The notes beneath the pieces are model-generated. The model did no database searches and had not been told where the DNA came from. It saw nothing but the letters and a program-made list of their open reading frames with translations. Shown piece by piece: positions 33,877 through 41,161 of a stretch of DNA of 42,141 nucleotides. Position numbers and translations under genes: made by a program. Within the stretch, counting starts at the first letter, position 1. Each line of letters starts with the position of its first letter. This DNA is from an uncultured SAR86 cluster bacterium (GTDB lineage Bacteria; Pseudomonadota; Gammaproteobacteria; Magnimaribacterales; D2472), in NCBI GenBank assembly GCA_902556355.1, contig CACDVW010000010.1, positions 1 through 42,141 of the forward strand, given 5' to 3'.

Positions 33877-33910
33877 TAAATATTCATTAAATACCTTGGG
33901 AGGGGAGATT

Positions 33911-34339
33911 ATGGATTTATTTACAAGCGTTTCCTATGAAATTGAATTATGGAATCTTTTTGCTGACTCTAGGGGAGCCAATGCAACTATATTTCTTGCA
34001 ACTGTAATTGCTGTCTGGGTTGCTGCTAGATTTAGCAGTGTGATGGTAGATAAGGGTGCAAATACATTAGCTAAATTAATTGGAACAGCTTTTGCTGTTT
34101 CAGTATTTTTAATAGGACTAAATTTAGCTGGTCTTATTAATGGAACCTTTGAAGGCCATGCTATGGCACTAAATGCACTTGATGTCGCTAATGGAGATAT
34201 TGATCTTGGAGCTGGCTCACAAGCTTGGCTTGCAGCACAGGCTGAGGGAAATATGATTGCCTCACTAGGTGGCTGGATGTTCTATATTTCAGGATTATTG
34301 ATTGCTGTTTTGCCTTTATGGTTCAATCCTAACGATTAA
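33911..34339 (+). CDS. Small membrane protein (about 3 TM helices), unknown function; candidate paralog of the 5488 ORF
   Basis: Track start at 33896 is a TTG inside the SD (ttGGGAGGGGAGattATG); real start is probably ATG 33911. Hydrophobic segments IFLATVIAVWVAA, LIGTAFAVSVFLIGLNLAGLI, GGWMFYISGLLIAVLPLW. Confidence 0.75.
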   Translation: MDLFTSVSYEIELWNLFADSRGANATIFLATVIAVWVAARFSSVMVDKGANTLAKLIGTAFAVSVFLIGLNLAGLINGTFEGHAMALNALDVANGDIDLGAGSQAWLAAQAEGNMIASLGGWMFYISGLLIAVLPLWFNPND

Positions 34340-34379: not shown

Positions 34380-34417
34380 ACTTTACTTTGTATTAGCATA
34401 GTAATACACTAGCACGC

Positions 34418-34684
34418 ATGAAAAACTTAAATGAAATATTTTTATTATTAAAAAGTAAAAATGAAGTAGATGATTTTTTAAAAGATCTTTGTACTCCAGC
34501 AGAATTAAAAGCATTAGAAGAGCGCTGGGCTGTTGCACAACTTTTATATGAAGATAATTTATCTTACAGAGAGATTGCGGCTAAATTAAAAACCAGCACA
34601 ACAACTGTAACCAGAGTAGCAAGATTTTTATCAAGTGAGCCGTATCAAGGATATAAACGAATTCTTAAAAGGATAAATAAATGA
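34418..34684 (+). CDS. YerC/YecD-type TrpR-like DNA-binding protein
   Basis: 'DFLKDLCTPAELKALEERWAVAQLLYEDNLSYREIAAKLKTSTTTVTRVARFLSSEPYQGYKRIL' is typical of the TrpR/YerC family; 4-nt ATGA overlap with hisG. Confidence 0.9.
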   Translation: MKNLNEIFLLLKSKNEVDDFLKDLCTPAELKALEERWAVAQLLYEDNLSYREIAAKLKTSTTTVTRVARFLSSEPYQGYKRILKRINK

Positions 34685-35544
34685 AAAATAGATTAACTAT
34701 TGCTGTTCAAAAAAAGGGTCGTCTGTTTGATCAAAGTATTGATTTGATTAAAAAGTCTGGTATTAATTTCTCAACAAAAGGAGATAATTTATTAGCAAAA
34801 TCAAATAATTTACCTATTGATATTCTTTTTGTAAGAAGTGATGACATACCCTCTCTTGTTTCAAATGGAGATGCTGATTTAGCTATAGTCGGTGAAAACG
34901 TATTACTAGAAAAATCATTATTTAAAAGAACTTATATTGATAAAGTCCTTAATTTGGGATTTTCAAGGTGTAGGCTATCTTTTGCATGCCCAGAAAATAT
35001 AAATATTAAATCATTTAAAGGTAAGAAAATTGCTACCTCATATCCGAATACAGTTAAAAAATACTTAAAAGATAAAAATATTAATGCCTCTGTTATTAAT
35101 ATTCACGGGTCAGTCGAACTTACGCCATATATTGGAATGTCTGATCTAATATGTGATCTTGTTTCGTCTGGTGCAACTTTAGAAGCTAATAATTTAAAAG
35201 AAATTGAAACCATCCTTGAATCACAAGCTATCCTTATAAAAAATAAAAATCTAACAACTACTAAATCAAAAATTGCTGAAAAAGTTATTAGCAGAATGCA
35301 AGGTGTTGTTAATGCTATTGAGAGTAAGTATGTAATGCTGAATGCTGACTCTTCAAAAGTTAAAGAAATTTGTAAGATATTGCCAGGATCAGAATCTCCA
35401 ACGGTTATACCTCTTGAAAATGAAAATAAAGTTGCAATACATGCTTTATGCCAAGAACCAATATTTTGGGAAACTATGGAAAAACTAAAAGCTAAGGGAG
35501 CGTCCTCTATTTTGGTTATGCCTGTTGAAAAAGTCTTAAATTAA
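34681..35544 (+). CDS. hisG: ATP phosphoribosyltransferase (long form)
   Basis: 'LTIAVQKKGRLFDQSIDLIKKSG', 'RSDDIPSLVSNGDADLAIVGENVL', 'DLICDLVSSGATLEANNLKEIE', C-terminal regulatory domain present (287 aa). Confidence 0.95.
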   Translation: MKNRLTIAVQKKGRLFDQSIDLIKKSGINFSTKGDNLLAKSNNLPIDILFVRSDDIPSLVSNGDADLAIVGENVLLEKSLFKRTYIDKVLNLGFSRCRLSFACPENINIKSFKGKKIATSYPNTVKKYLKDKNINASVINIHGSVELTPYIGMSDLICDLVSSGATLEANNLKEIETILESQAILIKNKNLTTTKSKIAEKVISRMQGVVNAIESKYVMLNADSSKVKEICKILPGSESPTVIPLENENKVAIHALCQEPIFWETMEKLKAKGASSILVMPVEKVLN

Positions 35545-35545
35545 T

Positions 35546-37420
35546 ATGAAAGAATTACTATTAAATAATAAATCTAAGATCTTAGAATTTACTGAGTCAA
35601 AAATTTCATCAAAAGATATTTCAACCATTAATAAATTTAAAAAGCTTGTTATCGATGAAGGTGACAATGGTTTAAGAAAGATATCTAAAATCTTAAAAGA
35701 AAAGGAAATTAAATCTTTTAAGGTTAGTAATTCAGAATTTAAAAAAGCGGAAGAATTAATTGATGATCAATTAAAGAATAGTATTCTCACAGCATATTCA
35801 AATATTAAAAAGTATCACGAAAAACAATTAGATGGCTTGTCAATTAATAAAGTAGAAACCACAAAAGGTGTCTCCTTATGGTCAGAATTTAAGCCTATTG
35901 ATAGTGTTGGGTTATATATACCTGGTGGCACTGCCCCACTGTTCAGCTCACTTCTAATGCAGGCAATTCCAGCAATTATTGCTGGTTGTCCAAATATTGT
36001 TATTTGCACACCTCCTGATACTAATGGAAAAATAAATCCAACTATATTATGGGTTGCTGGGTTACTAAATATTAAAAATGTATATAAAGTTGGTGGTTCT
36101 CAAGCTATTTTTGCAATGGCATATGGAACAGAGTCTATTCCAAAATGTTATAAGATATTTGGACCTGGTAATAAATATGTTACAGAAGCAAAATTACAGG
36201 TTAGTAAAGATATCTCAATTGATATGCCAGCTGGGCCAAGTGAAGTTTATGTTGTTTCAGACGATATAGAAAAAGCAGACATCATAGCTTCTGACTTGCT
36301 TTCACAACTTGAACACAGTATTGACGCCAAAGCAGTTTTAATTTCAAAAAATAAAAAGTTACTTAAAAATATAAAAGCAATTATTAGCTATCAAAAAGAA
36401 TCTTTGAGCAGACAATCTATACTCAATGAAAGTATAAACAATACATATTTAGTTAAAGCCCAAAATGATAAAGAAATAATAAATTTTATTAATGATAATG
36501 CACCTGAGCACTTAATATTAATCGATGATGATTTTGTAAAAATTGCACCATACGTTAACAATGCAGGTTCTGTATTTTGTGGTAAATATTCACCTGAGTC
36601 ATTTGGAGACTATGCTTCTGGTTCAAATCATACACTTCCAACTGGACAAGCTGCTAAAACATATTCTGGACTATCTGTTAAAGACTTTGGTAAAACTATT
36701 ACCTTCCAAACTGCAACTCCTGAGGGGTTCCTTGCTCTTGCTCCAACAGTCAAGACCCTTGCAGAAGCCGAAAGCTTAGATGCTCATACAAAAGCAGTAC
36801 AAGTTAGAGAAATTTATGCTATCAATGATGCAGGCTTATTACCTAGGACTTCTTTTATAAAACGTACTACCAAAGAGACTAGTATATTTATAAATTTAAA
36901 TATTGATGGTACAGGTAACTACAATGTGGATACGGGTCTTAAATTTTTTGATCATATGCTAGAGCAATTCGCAAAACATGGTCAATTTGATATCACTATA
37001 AAATCTTTTGGTGATTTGGAAATTGATCAACATCACACTATAGAAGATGTTGCTATAGCATTGGGTGAAGCATTTAAATCTGCCCTAGGAGATAGAAAAA
37101 ATATCGAAAGATATTCATCTAATGAATCACTAGTTATGGATGAAACTATTTCAAATGTAAGTATTGATATGGCATCCAGGACGCTTCTAAAAATGAGAAC
37201 ATCTAAATTAAGAGAATATGTTGGTGATTTTCCAACTGAGATGTTTGAACATTTTTTTATATCTTTTATAAATGCTCTTAATTTTACATGCCATATAGAA
37301 ACTAAAGGAGAAAATAGTCATCACATTGTTGAAGCAACTTTTAAAAGTTTTACAAGAGCATTGAATAAAGCCTTACAAAGAAATAATACAAATATTGCAT
37401 CAACCAAAGGAAGTCTATGA
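35546..37420 (+). CDS. Fused histidinol dehydrogenase (HisD) - imidazoleglycerol-phosphate dehydratase (HisB C-terminal domain)
   Basis: Residues 1 to ~425 are HisD (GLYIPGGTAPLFSSLLMQAIPA; FGPGNKYVTEAKLQV; MPAGPSEVYVVSD; NHTLPTGQAAKTYSGLSVKDF; LAEAESLDAHTKAVQVRE); residues ~435-624 are IGPD (RTTKETSIFINLNIDGTG; FFDHMLEQFAKHGQFDI; DQHHTIEDVAIALGEAF; EMFEHFFISF; STKGSL). Single uninterrupted ORF; IGPD begins near nt 36848. Confidence 0.95.
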   Translation: MKELLLNNKSKILEFTESKISSKDISTINKFKKLVIDEGDNGLRKISKILKEKEIKSFKVSNSEFKKAEELIDDQLKNSILTAYSNIKKYHEKQLDGLSINKVETTKGVSLWSEFKPIDSVGLYIPGGTAPLFSSLLMQAIPAIIAGCPNIVICTPPDTNGKINPTILWVAGLLNIKNVYKVGGSQAIFAMAYGTESIPKCYKIFGPGNKYVTEAKLQVSKDISIDMPAGPSEVYVVSDDIEKADIIASDLLSQLEHSIDAKAVLISKNKKLLKNIKAIISYQKESLSRQSILNESINNTYLVKAQNDKEIINFINDNAPEHLILIDDDFVKIAPYVNNAGSVFCGKYSPESFGDYASGSNHTLPTGQAAKTYSGLSVKDFGKTITFQTATPEGFLALAPTVKTLAEAESLDAHTKAVQVREIYAINDAGLLPRTSFIKRTTKETSIFINLNIDGTGNYNVDTGLKFFDHMLEQFAKHGQFDITIKSFGDLEIDQHHTIEDVAIALGEAFKSALGDRKNIERYSSNESLVMDETISNVSIDMASRTLLKMRTSKLREYVGDFPTEMFEHFFISFINALNFTCHIETKGENSHHIVEATFKSFTRALNKALQRNNTNIASTKGSL

Positions 37421-37992
37421 AAATTGGAATTGTTGATTGCGGAGGTGCAAATCTTAATTCAATCTATTATTCCTTTAAAAGATTGAATATAGATTCATTT
37501 ATTTCTAATTCCATAGATGAACTCTCACAAATGGATGCATTGGTATTACCCGGTGTCGGTTCTGCAGGAAAAGTTATGGATACATTATCAAAAAAAAATT
37601 TAGTTAGTTTTATTAAGGAAACCAATAAACCAGTACTTGGAATTTGTATAGGTATGCAAATTTTATTTGATTATTCTGAAGAAGATAATACTAAGTGCTT
37701 AGGTTTGATTAAAGGAAATATAACTAAATTTAATAAAAAAGATGTTATTGCTGTACCTCAGATGGGCTGGAATAAAGTCGAATGTAAGGTTGATAATACT
37801 TTGGATGGTTACTATTACTTTGCTAACAGTTATTTCAATAAAGACAGTGATTATACAGTTGGGTATACCTCATATGGTAGTCAATTCACATCAATTATAA
37901 AAAAAGATAATCTTTTGGGATGTCAATTCCACCCAGAAAAATCTTCTAATGCAGGCGAAGTGTTTTTAAAAAATTTTATTAATTCAATATGA
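37417..37992 (+). CDS. hisH: Imidazole glycerol phosphate synthase subunit HisH
   Basis: 'VDCGGANLNSIYYSFKRL', 'LVLPGVGSAG', 'VLGICIGMQILFDYSEE', 'LLGCQFHPEKSSNAG'. Confidence 0.95.
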   Translation: MKIGIVDCGGANLNSIYYSFKRLNIDSFISNSIDELSQMDALVLPGVGSAGKVMDTLSKKNLVSFIKETNKPVLGICIGMQILFDYSEEDNTKCLGLIKGNITKFNKKDVIAVPQMGWNKVECKVDNTLDGYYYFANSYFNKDSDYTVGYTSYGSQFTSIIKKDNLLGCQFHPEKSSNAGEVFLKNFINSI

Positions 37993-38708
37993 AAATAATT
38001 CCTGCTATTGATATCTTAAATGGTAAATGTGTTAGGTTGCTAAAAGGAAATTATTCTCAGGTTACTGAATATAATAATGATCCATTAAGACAGGTAAATA
38101 TATTTAAAAAAGCAGGCTTTAAAACTATTCATATAGTTGATTTAAATGCTGCTAAAACTGGTGGCAATGAAAACCTAAAAATTATTAAAGATATTGCAAA
38201 TACTGAAGATTTAGAAATCCAAGTTGGTGGCGGTATAAGAACGATTGATAAAGCGAAAGATCTTATATCTAACAATGTAAAAAGAGTTATTGTAGGTACA
38301 GCAGCTATTAAAGATATTAAATTTAGAAATGATCTAAAAGAAAATATTAATGTTGAAAACATTATATTTGGATTGGACTTTAATATTGTTAAAAACTCCC
38401 CTCTTCTTTCAGTAGATGGATGGACAAATAATACAAATATAAATTTGTTTGACTATATTAATGAAAACCCATGGATTAAAAATATATTAGCTACTGATAT
38501 TTCTGTTGATGGAACACTTCAAGGTCCAAATCTTAATATATATAAAAATCTATTAAATTATAAAAATATAAACTTAATAGCATCTGGCGGCATTGGATCT
38601 ATAAATGATATTTTCAACCTAAAATCAATATCATGTAATGAATGCGTTGTAGGTAAGGCTATATATGAAAATAAAATATCGCTTGAGGATTTGCTAAATG
38701 TTAACTAA
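37989..38708 (+). CDS. hisA: Phosphoribosylformimino-5-aminoimidazole carboxamide ribotide isomerase HisA
   Basis: '[26 protein letters not shown]', '[12 protein letters not shown]', '[17 protein letters not shown]', '[12 protein letters not shown]'. Confidence 0.95.
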
Positions 38709-39465
38709 AAGAATTATTCCATGTTTAGATGTTAAAAATGGATATGTAGTTAAAGGTATAAAATTTAAAAATCATGAGATTGTTGGATCGATTTTAGATT
38801 TGGCAAGTAAATATAATGAAGAAGGTGCTGATGAGTTAGTTTTTTATGACATTGGTGCAAGTACTTATGATGGTATTGTTTCTAAAGAATGGGTAAAACA
38901 GATTGCAGAACTTATTAATATTCCTTTTTGTGTTGCAGGTGGAATAAAAAATCTTAAAGATGCTAGAGATATTCTAAATAATGGTGCAGATAAAATTTCA
39001 ATAAATTCTCCAGCTCTAGCAAACCCTAATTTAATACAAGAGCTAGCAAATGAGTTTGGGAGTCAATGCGTTGTTGTGGGTATTGATTCTAGATATACAG
39101 ATAACAAATATATTGTCTATTCAAATACTGGAGATGAAAAAACTATAAAAAATACACAAATAGAAACTAAAGAATGGATAGATCAAGTCCAAAATCTTGG
39201 TGCGGGAGAAATCGTTTTAAATTGCATGAACAAAGATGGTGTTAGAGATGGGTATGATATCAATCAGTTAAATATTATGTTAAAAAATTGTGACGTTCCA
39301 TTGATAGCATCTGGTGGAGCGGGAACAAAAGGTCACTTTAAAGATGTACTCACCAAGACTGAATCTAGTGGAGCTCTTGCTGCAAGTGTATTTCATAAAG
39401 ACTTAATTAAAATAAATGAACTTAAAGACTTTTTAAGAAAAAATTCAATAAACATAAGGTACTAA
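38698..39465 (+). CDS. hisF: Imidazole glycerol phosphate synthase subunit HisF
   Basis: '[20 protein letters not shown]', '[13 protein letters not shown]', '[31 protein letters not shown]', '[18 protein letters not shown]'. Confidence 0.96.
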
Positions 39466-39467
39466 AA

Positions 39468-40064
39468 ATGGATATAGAAAATTTAAGCTATGATAACAGA
39501 GGTTTAATTCCAGCAATAATTCAAGATTCGATATCTTTTAATGTTTTAATGCTTGGATATATGAATAAAGATTCGCTACAACACACACTTAAAACCGAAG
39601 AAATTACATTTTTTAGCAGGTCAAAACAGAGGCTTTGGACTAAAGGAGAAACATCAGGAAATAAATTATTACTAAAATCAATTGAATTTGATTGTGATAA
39701 AGATGCTTTGCTGGTTAAAGCAGAGCAATTAGGACCAACATGCCATCTAGAAAATTATTCATGCTTCAAATCAGAGAAAAAACATTCTTTTTCAATAATT
39801 TCAGAACTAGAAGCTGTTATTGATGAAAGAAAAGGTAAGTCTTCAGAAAATTCATATGTCGCATCTTTGCTAGATAAAGGTGTTAAAGAAATTGCTAAAA
39901 AAGTTACAGAAGAAGCAGGTGAAACATCAATAGCTGCAGTTACAAATGACGGAAGATTAATAGAAGAATCTGCAGATTTACTCTTTCATCTGATAGTTCT
40001 TTTAAAAGATCAAAATTATTCTTTAGAGGATGTGTTTGATGAGCTAAAAAAACAGATCTTCTAA
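39468..40064 (+). CDS. hisI: Bifunctional phosphoribosyl-AMP cyclohydrolase / phosphoribosyl-ATP pyrophosphatase HisIE
   Basis: 'LMLGYMNKDSLQHTLKTEEITFFSRSKQRLWTKGETSGN', 'GPTCHLENYSCF', then 'VTEEAGETSIAAVTNDGRLIEESADLLFHLIVLL'. Confidence 0.95.
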   Translation: MDIENLSYDNRGLIPAIIQDSISFNVLMLGYMNKDSLQHTLKTEEITFFSRSKQRLWTKGETSGNKLLLKSIEFDCDKDALLVKAEQLGPTCHLENYSCFKSEKKHSFSIISELEAVIDERKGKSSENSYVASLLDKGVKEIAKKVTEEAGETSIAAVTNDGRLIEESADLLFHLIVLLKDQNYSLEDVFDELKKQIF

Positions 40065-41161
40065 TCAATAGATTTAATCTCTACATACTCAATTAACATA
40101 CGCCCTCTATCTTTATCAGATAGATTAGAGCATTCTTGATCTTTACAATAATATCTTTGATCAGGAGTACCGCCTCCATTTCCTCCAACTGCAACATTTA
40201 AAATAAGATAGAAATCATTATTAAAAGGCCAATAATCATTATTGAATTCTGTTTGAGTATTTTTATCAATAGAAAAATAAGGATCTGTTTGAGTATCTAA
40301 AAAATACTCGATTTTATCAGTCTGCCATCTCATTGTTACAGAATGAAATTTATCGTAAAAATCTACATCTGCTGGAACACCCCTAATTTGATAAATATTT
40401 CTAGCACCGTTTGACCCAAAATGAATTGTTGATTGTGTCTCGTACGCTTGATGATTTTGCATATGTTCAACCAAATCATTTTCTCCATCAACGGGCCATC
40501 GTTTTTGTCCTTCAACAAATCCTTCAGGGAGCATCCAAATTGCTGGCCAATGACCCATACCCTCAGGATGTTTAAAACAAACGGTTACCTCTGTACCAGG
40601 TGAAATAATTTTTTTACCAGATGTCATTATACGAGCTGAAGTATAATCCCAAGTGTAATTACAAGACTTGTCTGAACAATATGGATCAGGCAATGGATTA
40701 GCTTCGTTAAAAATTGGTTGTATTTTTAAAAGACCGTCTTCAATAAAAGCATTTTCAGTTGTATTATTTTCTTGATTACAGTTTTTTGAATATCCGTCAT
40801 TGCAACTTGTATAATACTGAGCTTCATTATTACCCCATCCTTGTATAAAGTCATCATCACCGTTTGGGCAACCAGGATTTACACAGAAACCATTTGATTC
40901 TTGATAAGTAAAAATATTTTCATCTAAAACATCTGAATCAAATTCTTCGATCCAGTAAGAAGAAGAATCATTTACTGGAGTTGCGCAATATGAATCTTTT
41001 TTTACATCATATATAGATGTAGAACCACCTGAACCACCTGAACCACCTGAACCGCCTGAACCGCCTGAGCTTCCATCATCAGAGGGCCCGCCGCCACCGC
41101 CTCCGCCACAAGAGACAAGCAATGCCAATAACAAAAAGTTAAGCAAGGATTTTTTATACAT
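40061..41161 (-). CDS. Putative GH16 family glycoside hydrolase, lipoprotein with Gly/Ser linker
   Basis: Lipobox LLVSC; (SGG)n linker; 'GHWPAIWMLPE', catalytic-type ExDxxE in 'WPVDGENDLVEHM', 'FYDKFHSVTMRWQTDKIEYFLD', 'PFNNDFYLILNVAVGGNGGG'. Confidence 0.88.
   Translation of the reverse strand: MYKKSLLNFLLLALLVSCGGGGGGGPSDDGSSGGSGGSGGSGGSGGSTSIYDVKKDSYCATPVNDSSSYWIEEFDSDVLDENIFTYQESNGFCVNPGCPNGDDDFIQGWGNNEAQYYTSCNDGYSKNCNQENNTTENAFIEDGLLKIQPIFNEANPLPDPYCSDKSCNYTWDYTSARIMTSGKKIISPGTEVTVCFKHPEGMGHWPAIWMLPEGFVEGQKRWPVDGENDLVEHMQNHQAYETQSTIHFGSNGARNIYQIRGVPADVDFYDKFHSVTMRWQTDKIEYFLDTQTDPYFSIDKNTQTEFNNDYWPFNNDFYLILNVAVGGNGGGTPDQRYYCKDQECSNLSDKDRGRMLIEYVEIKSID
41022..41066. repeat. Five tandem 9-bp units (GAACCACCT / GAACCGCCT)
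   Basis: gaaccacct x3 then gaaccgcct x2, encoding the GGS linker of the GH16 lipoprotein on the minus strand. Confidence 0.9.

Follow-up and report, generated by a model that had tools for sequence, protein, structure and literature searches.

A HisD–IGPD fusion in the histidine operon of a SAR86 family and candidate genes for the two steps missing from that operon

The window analysed here, a 42,141-nt stretch of DNA, comes from an SAR86 cluster bacterium (family D2472) whose 1.07-Mb genome is 75% complete and lies in 47 contigs. In its histidine operon, the frame encoding HisD continues directly into the dehydratase part of HisB (IGPD), and neither hisC nor the histidinol-phosphatase (HolPase) domain of HisB is present between them. 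The locus therefore raises the questions of whether one protein unites the two enzymes, how such a protein could have arisen, and which genes might supply the two steps missing from the operon. For research on how operons and pathways evolve, fused histidine enzymes are a classic example. We consider it about 82% probable that the locus encodes a bifunctional HisD–IGPD protein whose origin lies in the in-frame removal of hisC and the HolPase domain, that a hisC gene in the aro cluster and a HAD-IB phosphatase fill the resulting gap, and that the operon is under HisR-type control.

The fused reading frame and its operon

Positions 35,546–37,420 of the forward strand form one 624-aa ORF with an ATG start and no internal stop codon, composed of a full-length HisD, a 12-aa linker and a full-length IGPD. 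The HisD domain (residues 1–421; 35,546–36,808) matches Pfam Histidinol_dh (PF00815) over residues 26–421 (profile positions 13–410 of 411, E 2.7e-143) and the NCBIfam hisD model (TIGR00069) with 465 bits against a cut-off of 243.8. The IGPD domain (residues 434–624; 36,845–37,420 including the stop codon) begins at residue 434 according to NCBIfam and covers the entire Pfam IGPD profile (PF00475, positions 1–144 of 144, E 7e-54) with residues 463–606. The Pfam and NCBIfam profiles identified no HAD domain in the ORF, and the score with the bifunctional HisB model (234.7 bits) was under its cut-off of 443. These searches bear out the single HisD–IGPD frame proposed in a preliminary description of this DNA.

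Alignment with the E. coli enzyme identified the HisD zinc ligands as Q254, H257, D355 and H414 (Q259, H262, D360 and H419 in E. coli) and the catalytic pair as E321/H322 (E326/H327 in E. coli). All of these residues are invariant in 15 aligned fusions with identities down to 48%, as are H470, E473, H496, H497, E500, D501, H569, H592, H593 and E596 of the IGPD domain. Both domains are under purifying selection, with dN/dS of about 0.04–0.14. An AlphaFold monomer model of the fusion has a mean pLDDT of 85.8 and a pTM of 0.84, with HisD and IGPD as its nearest solved structures, and extends the C-terminal helix of HisD to residue 428. Judged by these sequence features, the fusion is probably a working bifunctional HisD–IGPD enzyme.

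The linker (residues 422–433; 36,809–36,844) is weakly conserved and is bounded by R421 and R434, both invariant. It had been described as about 10 aa long; the family alignment gives 12 aa here and 8–12 aa in relatives. Its dN/dS was 0.6–0.9 against three more distant relatives and 0–0.27 against two very close ones, and selection is looser on the linker than on either domain. In comparison with E. coli, these 12 residues replace the last few residues of HisD together with all of HisB that precedes the start of IGPD. At this point E. coli carries about 1.57 kb that comprises hisC together with the HolPase half of hisB, both of which are absent from the junction, as originally described. Because residues 400–460 contain no in-frame ATG, GTG or TTG codon, we regard it as unlikely that IGPD is also made on its own from an internal start.

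The surrounding genes, all on the forward strand, follow the order TrpR-like regulator, hisG, hisD-IGPD, hisH, hisA, hisF and hisIE, so the gene order on either side of the fusion is intact, as had been reported. Neighbouring genes overlap by 4 to 11 nt or are separated by 1–2 nt; hisG ends 1 nt upstream of the fusion ORF and hisH overlaps it by 4 nt. The hisG gene (34,681–35,544; HisG and HisG_C) is of the long form with a regulatory C-terminal domain. Downstream of the fusion lie hisH (37,417–37,992; IMP_synth_hisH, 191.7 bits, cut-off 105.4), hisA (37,989–38,708; above the TIGR00007 cut-off), hisF (38,698–39,465; above the TIGR00735 cut-off) and hisIE (39,468–40,064; PRA-CH and PRA-PH, above the NF002747 cut-off). 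Two further genes flank the operon. A 147-aa ORF with hydrophobic segments and no Pfam match (33,896–34,339, forward strand) is kept upstream of it in most of the genus, and a glycosyl hydrolase family 16 gene whose product begins with a signal-like segment and contains a glycine-rich stretch (40,061–41,161, reverse strand) adjoins it in much of the genus.

The first gene of the operon (34,418–34,684) encodes an 88-aa TrpR-family protein (Trp_repressor, E 1.6e-21), which NCBIfam places above the cut-off of the YerC/YecD family and below that of TrpR. A HisR-like gene occupies the equivalent position in many other gammaproteobacterial his operons. Directly upstream, ending 9 nt before the start codon, we identified the palindrome TGTATTAGCATAGTAATACA (34,389–34,408; half-sites TGTATTA and TAATACA around GCATAG), which is the one place in the window where TGTnTTAN6TAAnACA matches. 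Palindromes of this form are found at the equivalent place across much of the host family, and their half-sites covary (for example TGTTTTA...TAAAACA). The sequence agrees with the published proteobacterial HisR motif, TGTAnTArnnnnyTnTTACA (PMC9413887), apart from two mismatches. A TrpR-family gene at a his operon thus occurs here together with an upstream TrpR-like palindrome, and the expression of the operon is probably controlled by this repressor through the putative operator at 34,389–34,408. Histidine synthesis in SAR86 would then apparently be under HisR control.

Distribution and origin of the fusion

The fusion protein is present in 55 of 107 genomes of the host SAR86 family, many of which are incomplete MAGs related to one another. 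The junction lies within one open frame in 54 of the 55 and is interrupted by a contig end in the last. None of the 107 genomes has separate hisD and hisB genes; the remaining 52 gave no hisD or hisB match whatsoever, and genus g6 is entirely without them. In other families of the SAR86 order, hisD and hisB are found separately at distant loci, or neither is present. No further HisD–IGPD fusion was identified among 369 other gammaproteobacteria or among 399 Pseudomonadota genomes, the nearest cases in these samples being adjacent hisD and hisB genes with stop codons between them. A scan of the GTDB collection with two peptide patterns placed the fusion in SAR86 only among its best 80 loci.

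Other gammaproteobacteria have this operon arrangement, except that hisD is followed by hisC and a HolPase-IGPD hisB before hisH, and the operons of Bacteroidota are likewise arranged. In a tree of concatenated HisG, HisD, IGPD, HisH, HisA and HisF, the host family is sister to the gammaproteobacterial operons with long HisG, of the enterobacterial type, with support of 100/100. Bacteroidota operons form the next group out, and the split operons of the sister SAR86 families group with other short-HisG gammaproteobacteria. A Bacteroidota origin, considered in view of HisD identities of 42–52%, was rejected because this tree puts the gammaproteobacterial operons closer. Measured against the enterobacterial-type operon (G-D-C-[NB]-H-A-F-IE), the long HisG, the gene order and the tree position of the host operon all fit, and what is missing is hisC and the HolPase domain, as a deletion requires. 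The IGPD domain does not reveal its origin when analysed by itself: its tree gives a weak grouping with monofunctional IGPDs of Firmicutes (95/67), and no placement tried was rejected by AU tests.

Since the nearest operon relatives hold hisC and HolPase-IGPD exactly at the junction, the simplest reading, and a well-supported one, is a loss of both hisC and the HolPase domain in the fused lineage. The in-frame deletion suggested at the outset thus gains support from both the relatives' operons and the concatenated tree, although one deletion and a series of losses would look alike. The fusion would have arisen once, before the family diversified, inside a HisR-hisG-D-C-[NB]-H-A-F-IE operon. 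Judged by the spacing in E. coli, about 1.5 kb holding hisC and the phosphatase half of hisB would have dropped out in frame, a loss that would have been tolerated because other genes in the genome could provide for both steps.

Two other explanations of the junction have to be weighed against such a loss. An assembly collapse or a sequencing error could have deleted the same segment artificially, as might be suspected of a source genome that is three-quarters complete and fragmented. However, the same junction recurs in the 54 assemblies mentioned above, at protein identities down to 48% and with natural divergence of the linker sequence, and two of its carriers are single-contig genomes (G018 and G023). 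The survey of relatives therefore rules out an artefact for practical purposes, and we give this explanation a negligible probability. A stepwise history deserves more weight, although we still hold it to be rather unlikely. According to it, losses at different times removed hisC and the HolPase domain, or the IGPD was never bifunctional, and neighbouring hisD and monofunctional hisB genes then fused by loss of a stop codon. Adjacent hisD–hisB pairs without hisC are known in Firmicutes and a few proteobacteria; in some of them (G203, G315 and G515) the two genes share a frame and nothing but stop codons separates them. Such a history would also agree with the weak affinity of IGPD alone to the Firmicutes type. 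However, the concatenated tree puts those adjacent pairs that it includes, which have a short HisG, in other places, and the unfused intermediate was found neither among the 107 host-family genomes nor in the class sample of 369.

Candidate genes for steps 7 and 8

The preliminary description had left two alternatives, that the aminotransferase and phosphatase are supplied from elsewhere or that the pathway is incomplete. A search of the genome points to the former. The hisC gene of the source genome (G000:C7:16436-17491) lies within the cluster gyrA-serC-pheA-hisC-tyrA-aroA-cmk-rpsA, and its product scores 339.7 bits with TIGR01141 (cut-off 276.55). It occupies the same place in the sister families f2 and f3, and in g5 it has been relocated to the end of the his operon. 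Within the host family, hisC is present in 47 of the 55 genomes with the fusion versus 13 of the 52 without it. Four his-less genomes, three from genus g6 and one from g5, retain an intact aro cluster with no hisC between pheA and tyrA. Since only hisC has left an otherwise complete cluster, HisC appears to go with histidine synthesis and seems dispensable for aromatic amino acids in these genomes. In g5 the absence may be a block loss, given the position of hisC at the end of the his operon, and in g6 it looks like an independent excision. The g6 genomes in question (L223, L224 and L225), in which no hisD or hisB was found and pheA and tyrA overlap by 4 nt, are likely histidine auxotrophs.

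For the histidinol-phosphatase step, the candidate is a HAD-IB phosphatase gene that adjoins rppH (G000:C6:45709-46311) and is found in both the host family and the sister families. The top NCBIfam match of its product is HolPasePseu (NF052360), the Pseudomonas-type histidinol-phosphatase, over the full length (E 2e-72). Because its score of 243.4 bits (176.1 in g5) is below the curated cut-off of 280, we refer to it as a homologue and not as a member of that family. The gene co-occurs with the fusion in 52 of 55 genomes, versus 20 of the 52 fusion-less ones; the genomes being related and incomplete, neither these figures nor those for hisC are independent and no probability is claimed for them. 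All seven fusion-bearing genomes of g5 (L212–L218) have HAD-IB, hisR, hisG, hisD-IGPD, hisH, hisA, hisF, hisIE and hisC at one locus. The HAD-IB gene there is on the opposite strand, divergent from the his operon, and in two of these genomes an exact-pattern scan identified a HisR-type palindrome between them. There are exceptions to the association: the single-contig genome G023 has the fusion without HAD-IB, and the his-less genus g6 mostly retains it. At the locus where its relatives have a gcvP-like gene, HAD-IB and rppH, G023 carries one 509-aa ORF ending in RppH (L221:4792-6321), which looks like another deletion with fusion.

Other phosphatase types were sought and set aside. With regard to dedicated PHP-type HolPases, the sole finds in fusion-bearing genomes were PHP domains carried by DNA polymerase III, in frames of about 1150 aa. 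The HisB-type HAD HolPase (TIGR01656) was above its cut-off only in fusion-less genomes of the family, fusion-bearing ones showing weak partial matches.

The phosphatase assignment and the completeness of the pathway each face an alternative. Step 8 could be carried out by a SuhB/CysQ-like member of the inositol-phosphatase family, or by another promiscuous HAD protein, since the source genome encodes three proteins of the former family and G023 has the fusion but no HAD-IB. However, these proteins, one of them CysQ-like and one SuhB-like by their neighbours, reach only 87–101 of the 275 bits set for HisN and occur just as often in the family's his-less genomes, whereas HAD-IB has the HolPasePseu match and the linkage in g5. 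We accordingly judge the alternative phosphatases improbable. It is also conceivable that the pathway is decaying, with the fusion being lost and histidine imported, as the 52 his-less genomes of the family and the wholly his-less genus g6 might indicate. Against this, the operon is complete wherever it is present, its catalytic residues are intact and its dN/dS is about 0.1; hisC and HAD-IB are retained alongside the fusion, and g5 has all the genes collected at one locus. Decay therefore seems very unlikely, and the pathway appears to be complete, with the two missing steps apparently covered by genes elsewhere in the genome.

Working of the fusion and comparison with known systems

In the pathway so reconstructed, the C-terminal domain would catalyse step 6 (imidazoleglycerol-phosphate dehydration) and the N-terminal domain steps 9–10 (histidinol to histidine), with steps 7 and 8 carried out by separate proteins, the aro-cluster HisC and the HAD-IB phosphatase. 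With these intervening steps left to other proteins, direct hand-over between the fused active sites would be impossible; plausible effects of the fusion are a fixed 1:1 stoichiometry and co-location. IGPD forms 24-mers and HisD forms dimers, and E. coli HisB already carries an N-terminal partner on IGPD, by analogy with which the architecture appears feasible. It is a long shot that a 24-subunit IGPD core with HisD dimers on its surface recruits HisC and HAD-IB, so that steps 6 to 10 take place on one particle; if it did, the fusion would have been selected for channelling and would be more than a harmless by-product of deletion.

The HisD–IGPD combination unites non-consecutive steps and is new relative to the literature that we searched; this search covered part of the literature, so an earlier report is possible. 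The case is unusually readable, as the operon lacks exactly two functions, both of which other genes in the genome could supply. It also nominates genes that can be tested for the aminotransferase and histidinol-phosphatase roles in SAR86, the latter enzyme being one that is often missing. SAR86 is abundant in the sea, and the same partial search returned nothing relevant on histidine auxotrophy in it. Annotation pipelines that look for hisB, hisC and hisN as separate genes could misjudge such genomes as histidine auxotrophs.

Pathway fusions described in the literature that we searched comprise HisNB, HisIE, HIS4 (I-E-D), HIS7/HisHF, the heptafunctional protein of Acanthamoeba and archaeal ones. 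HisNB of enterobacteria and Bacteroidota, in which a HAD histidinol-phosphatase precedes IGPD, resembles the SAR86 protein in joining a histidine enzyme to the N-terminus of IGPD, in the same slot before hisH of a related operon. However, its N-terminal partner is the HolPase of step 8, whereas the SAR86 fusion has HisD (steps 9–10) and is without a HolPase domain. HIS4 of fungi and other eukaryotes, a HisI-HisE-HisD fusion, also joins HisD to non-consecutive steps (PMC1963479), but its partners are HisI and HisE, HisD is C-terminal, and IGPD is not included. The Acanthamoeba protein is likewise a multi-enzyme fusion that includes HisD, with IGPD encoded by a separate gene (PMC6029752).

Among the genomes surveyed, a 551-aa HisC–IGPD ORF of an uncultured Bacteroidales (E19__bin68; L135:7302-8957) is a second, independent case of a fusion between IGPD and its left-hand partner in which the HolPase domain is missing. 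It differs in that the partner is HisC and hisD is separate, and it occurs in a single genome. The left part of the operon in a gammaproteobacterial genome (L177, G124) contains a 788-aa HisD–HisC ORF; hisH and hisA of that genome also look broken, so sequencing errors are possible. The sister SAR86 families of the same order share the hisC of the aro cluster and the rppH-linked HAD-IB gene with the host family. However, their operons are split (hisG of the short form with hisD; hisB-H-A-F), hisD and hisB lie far apart and are monofunctional, and their enzymes fall on another branch in the trees.
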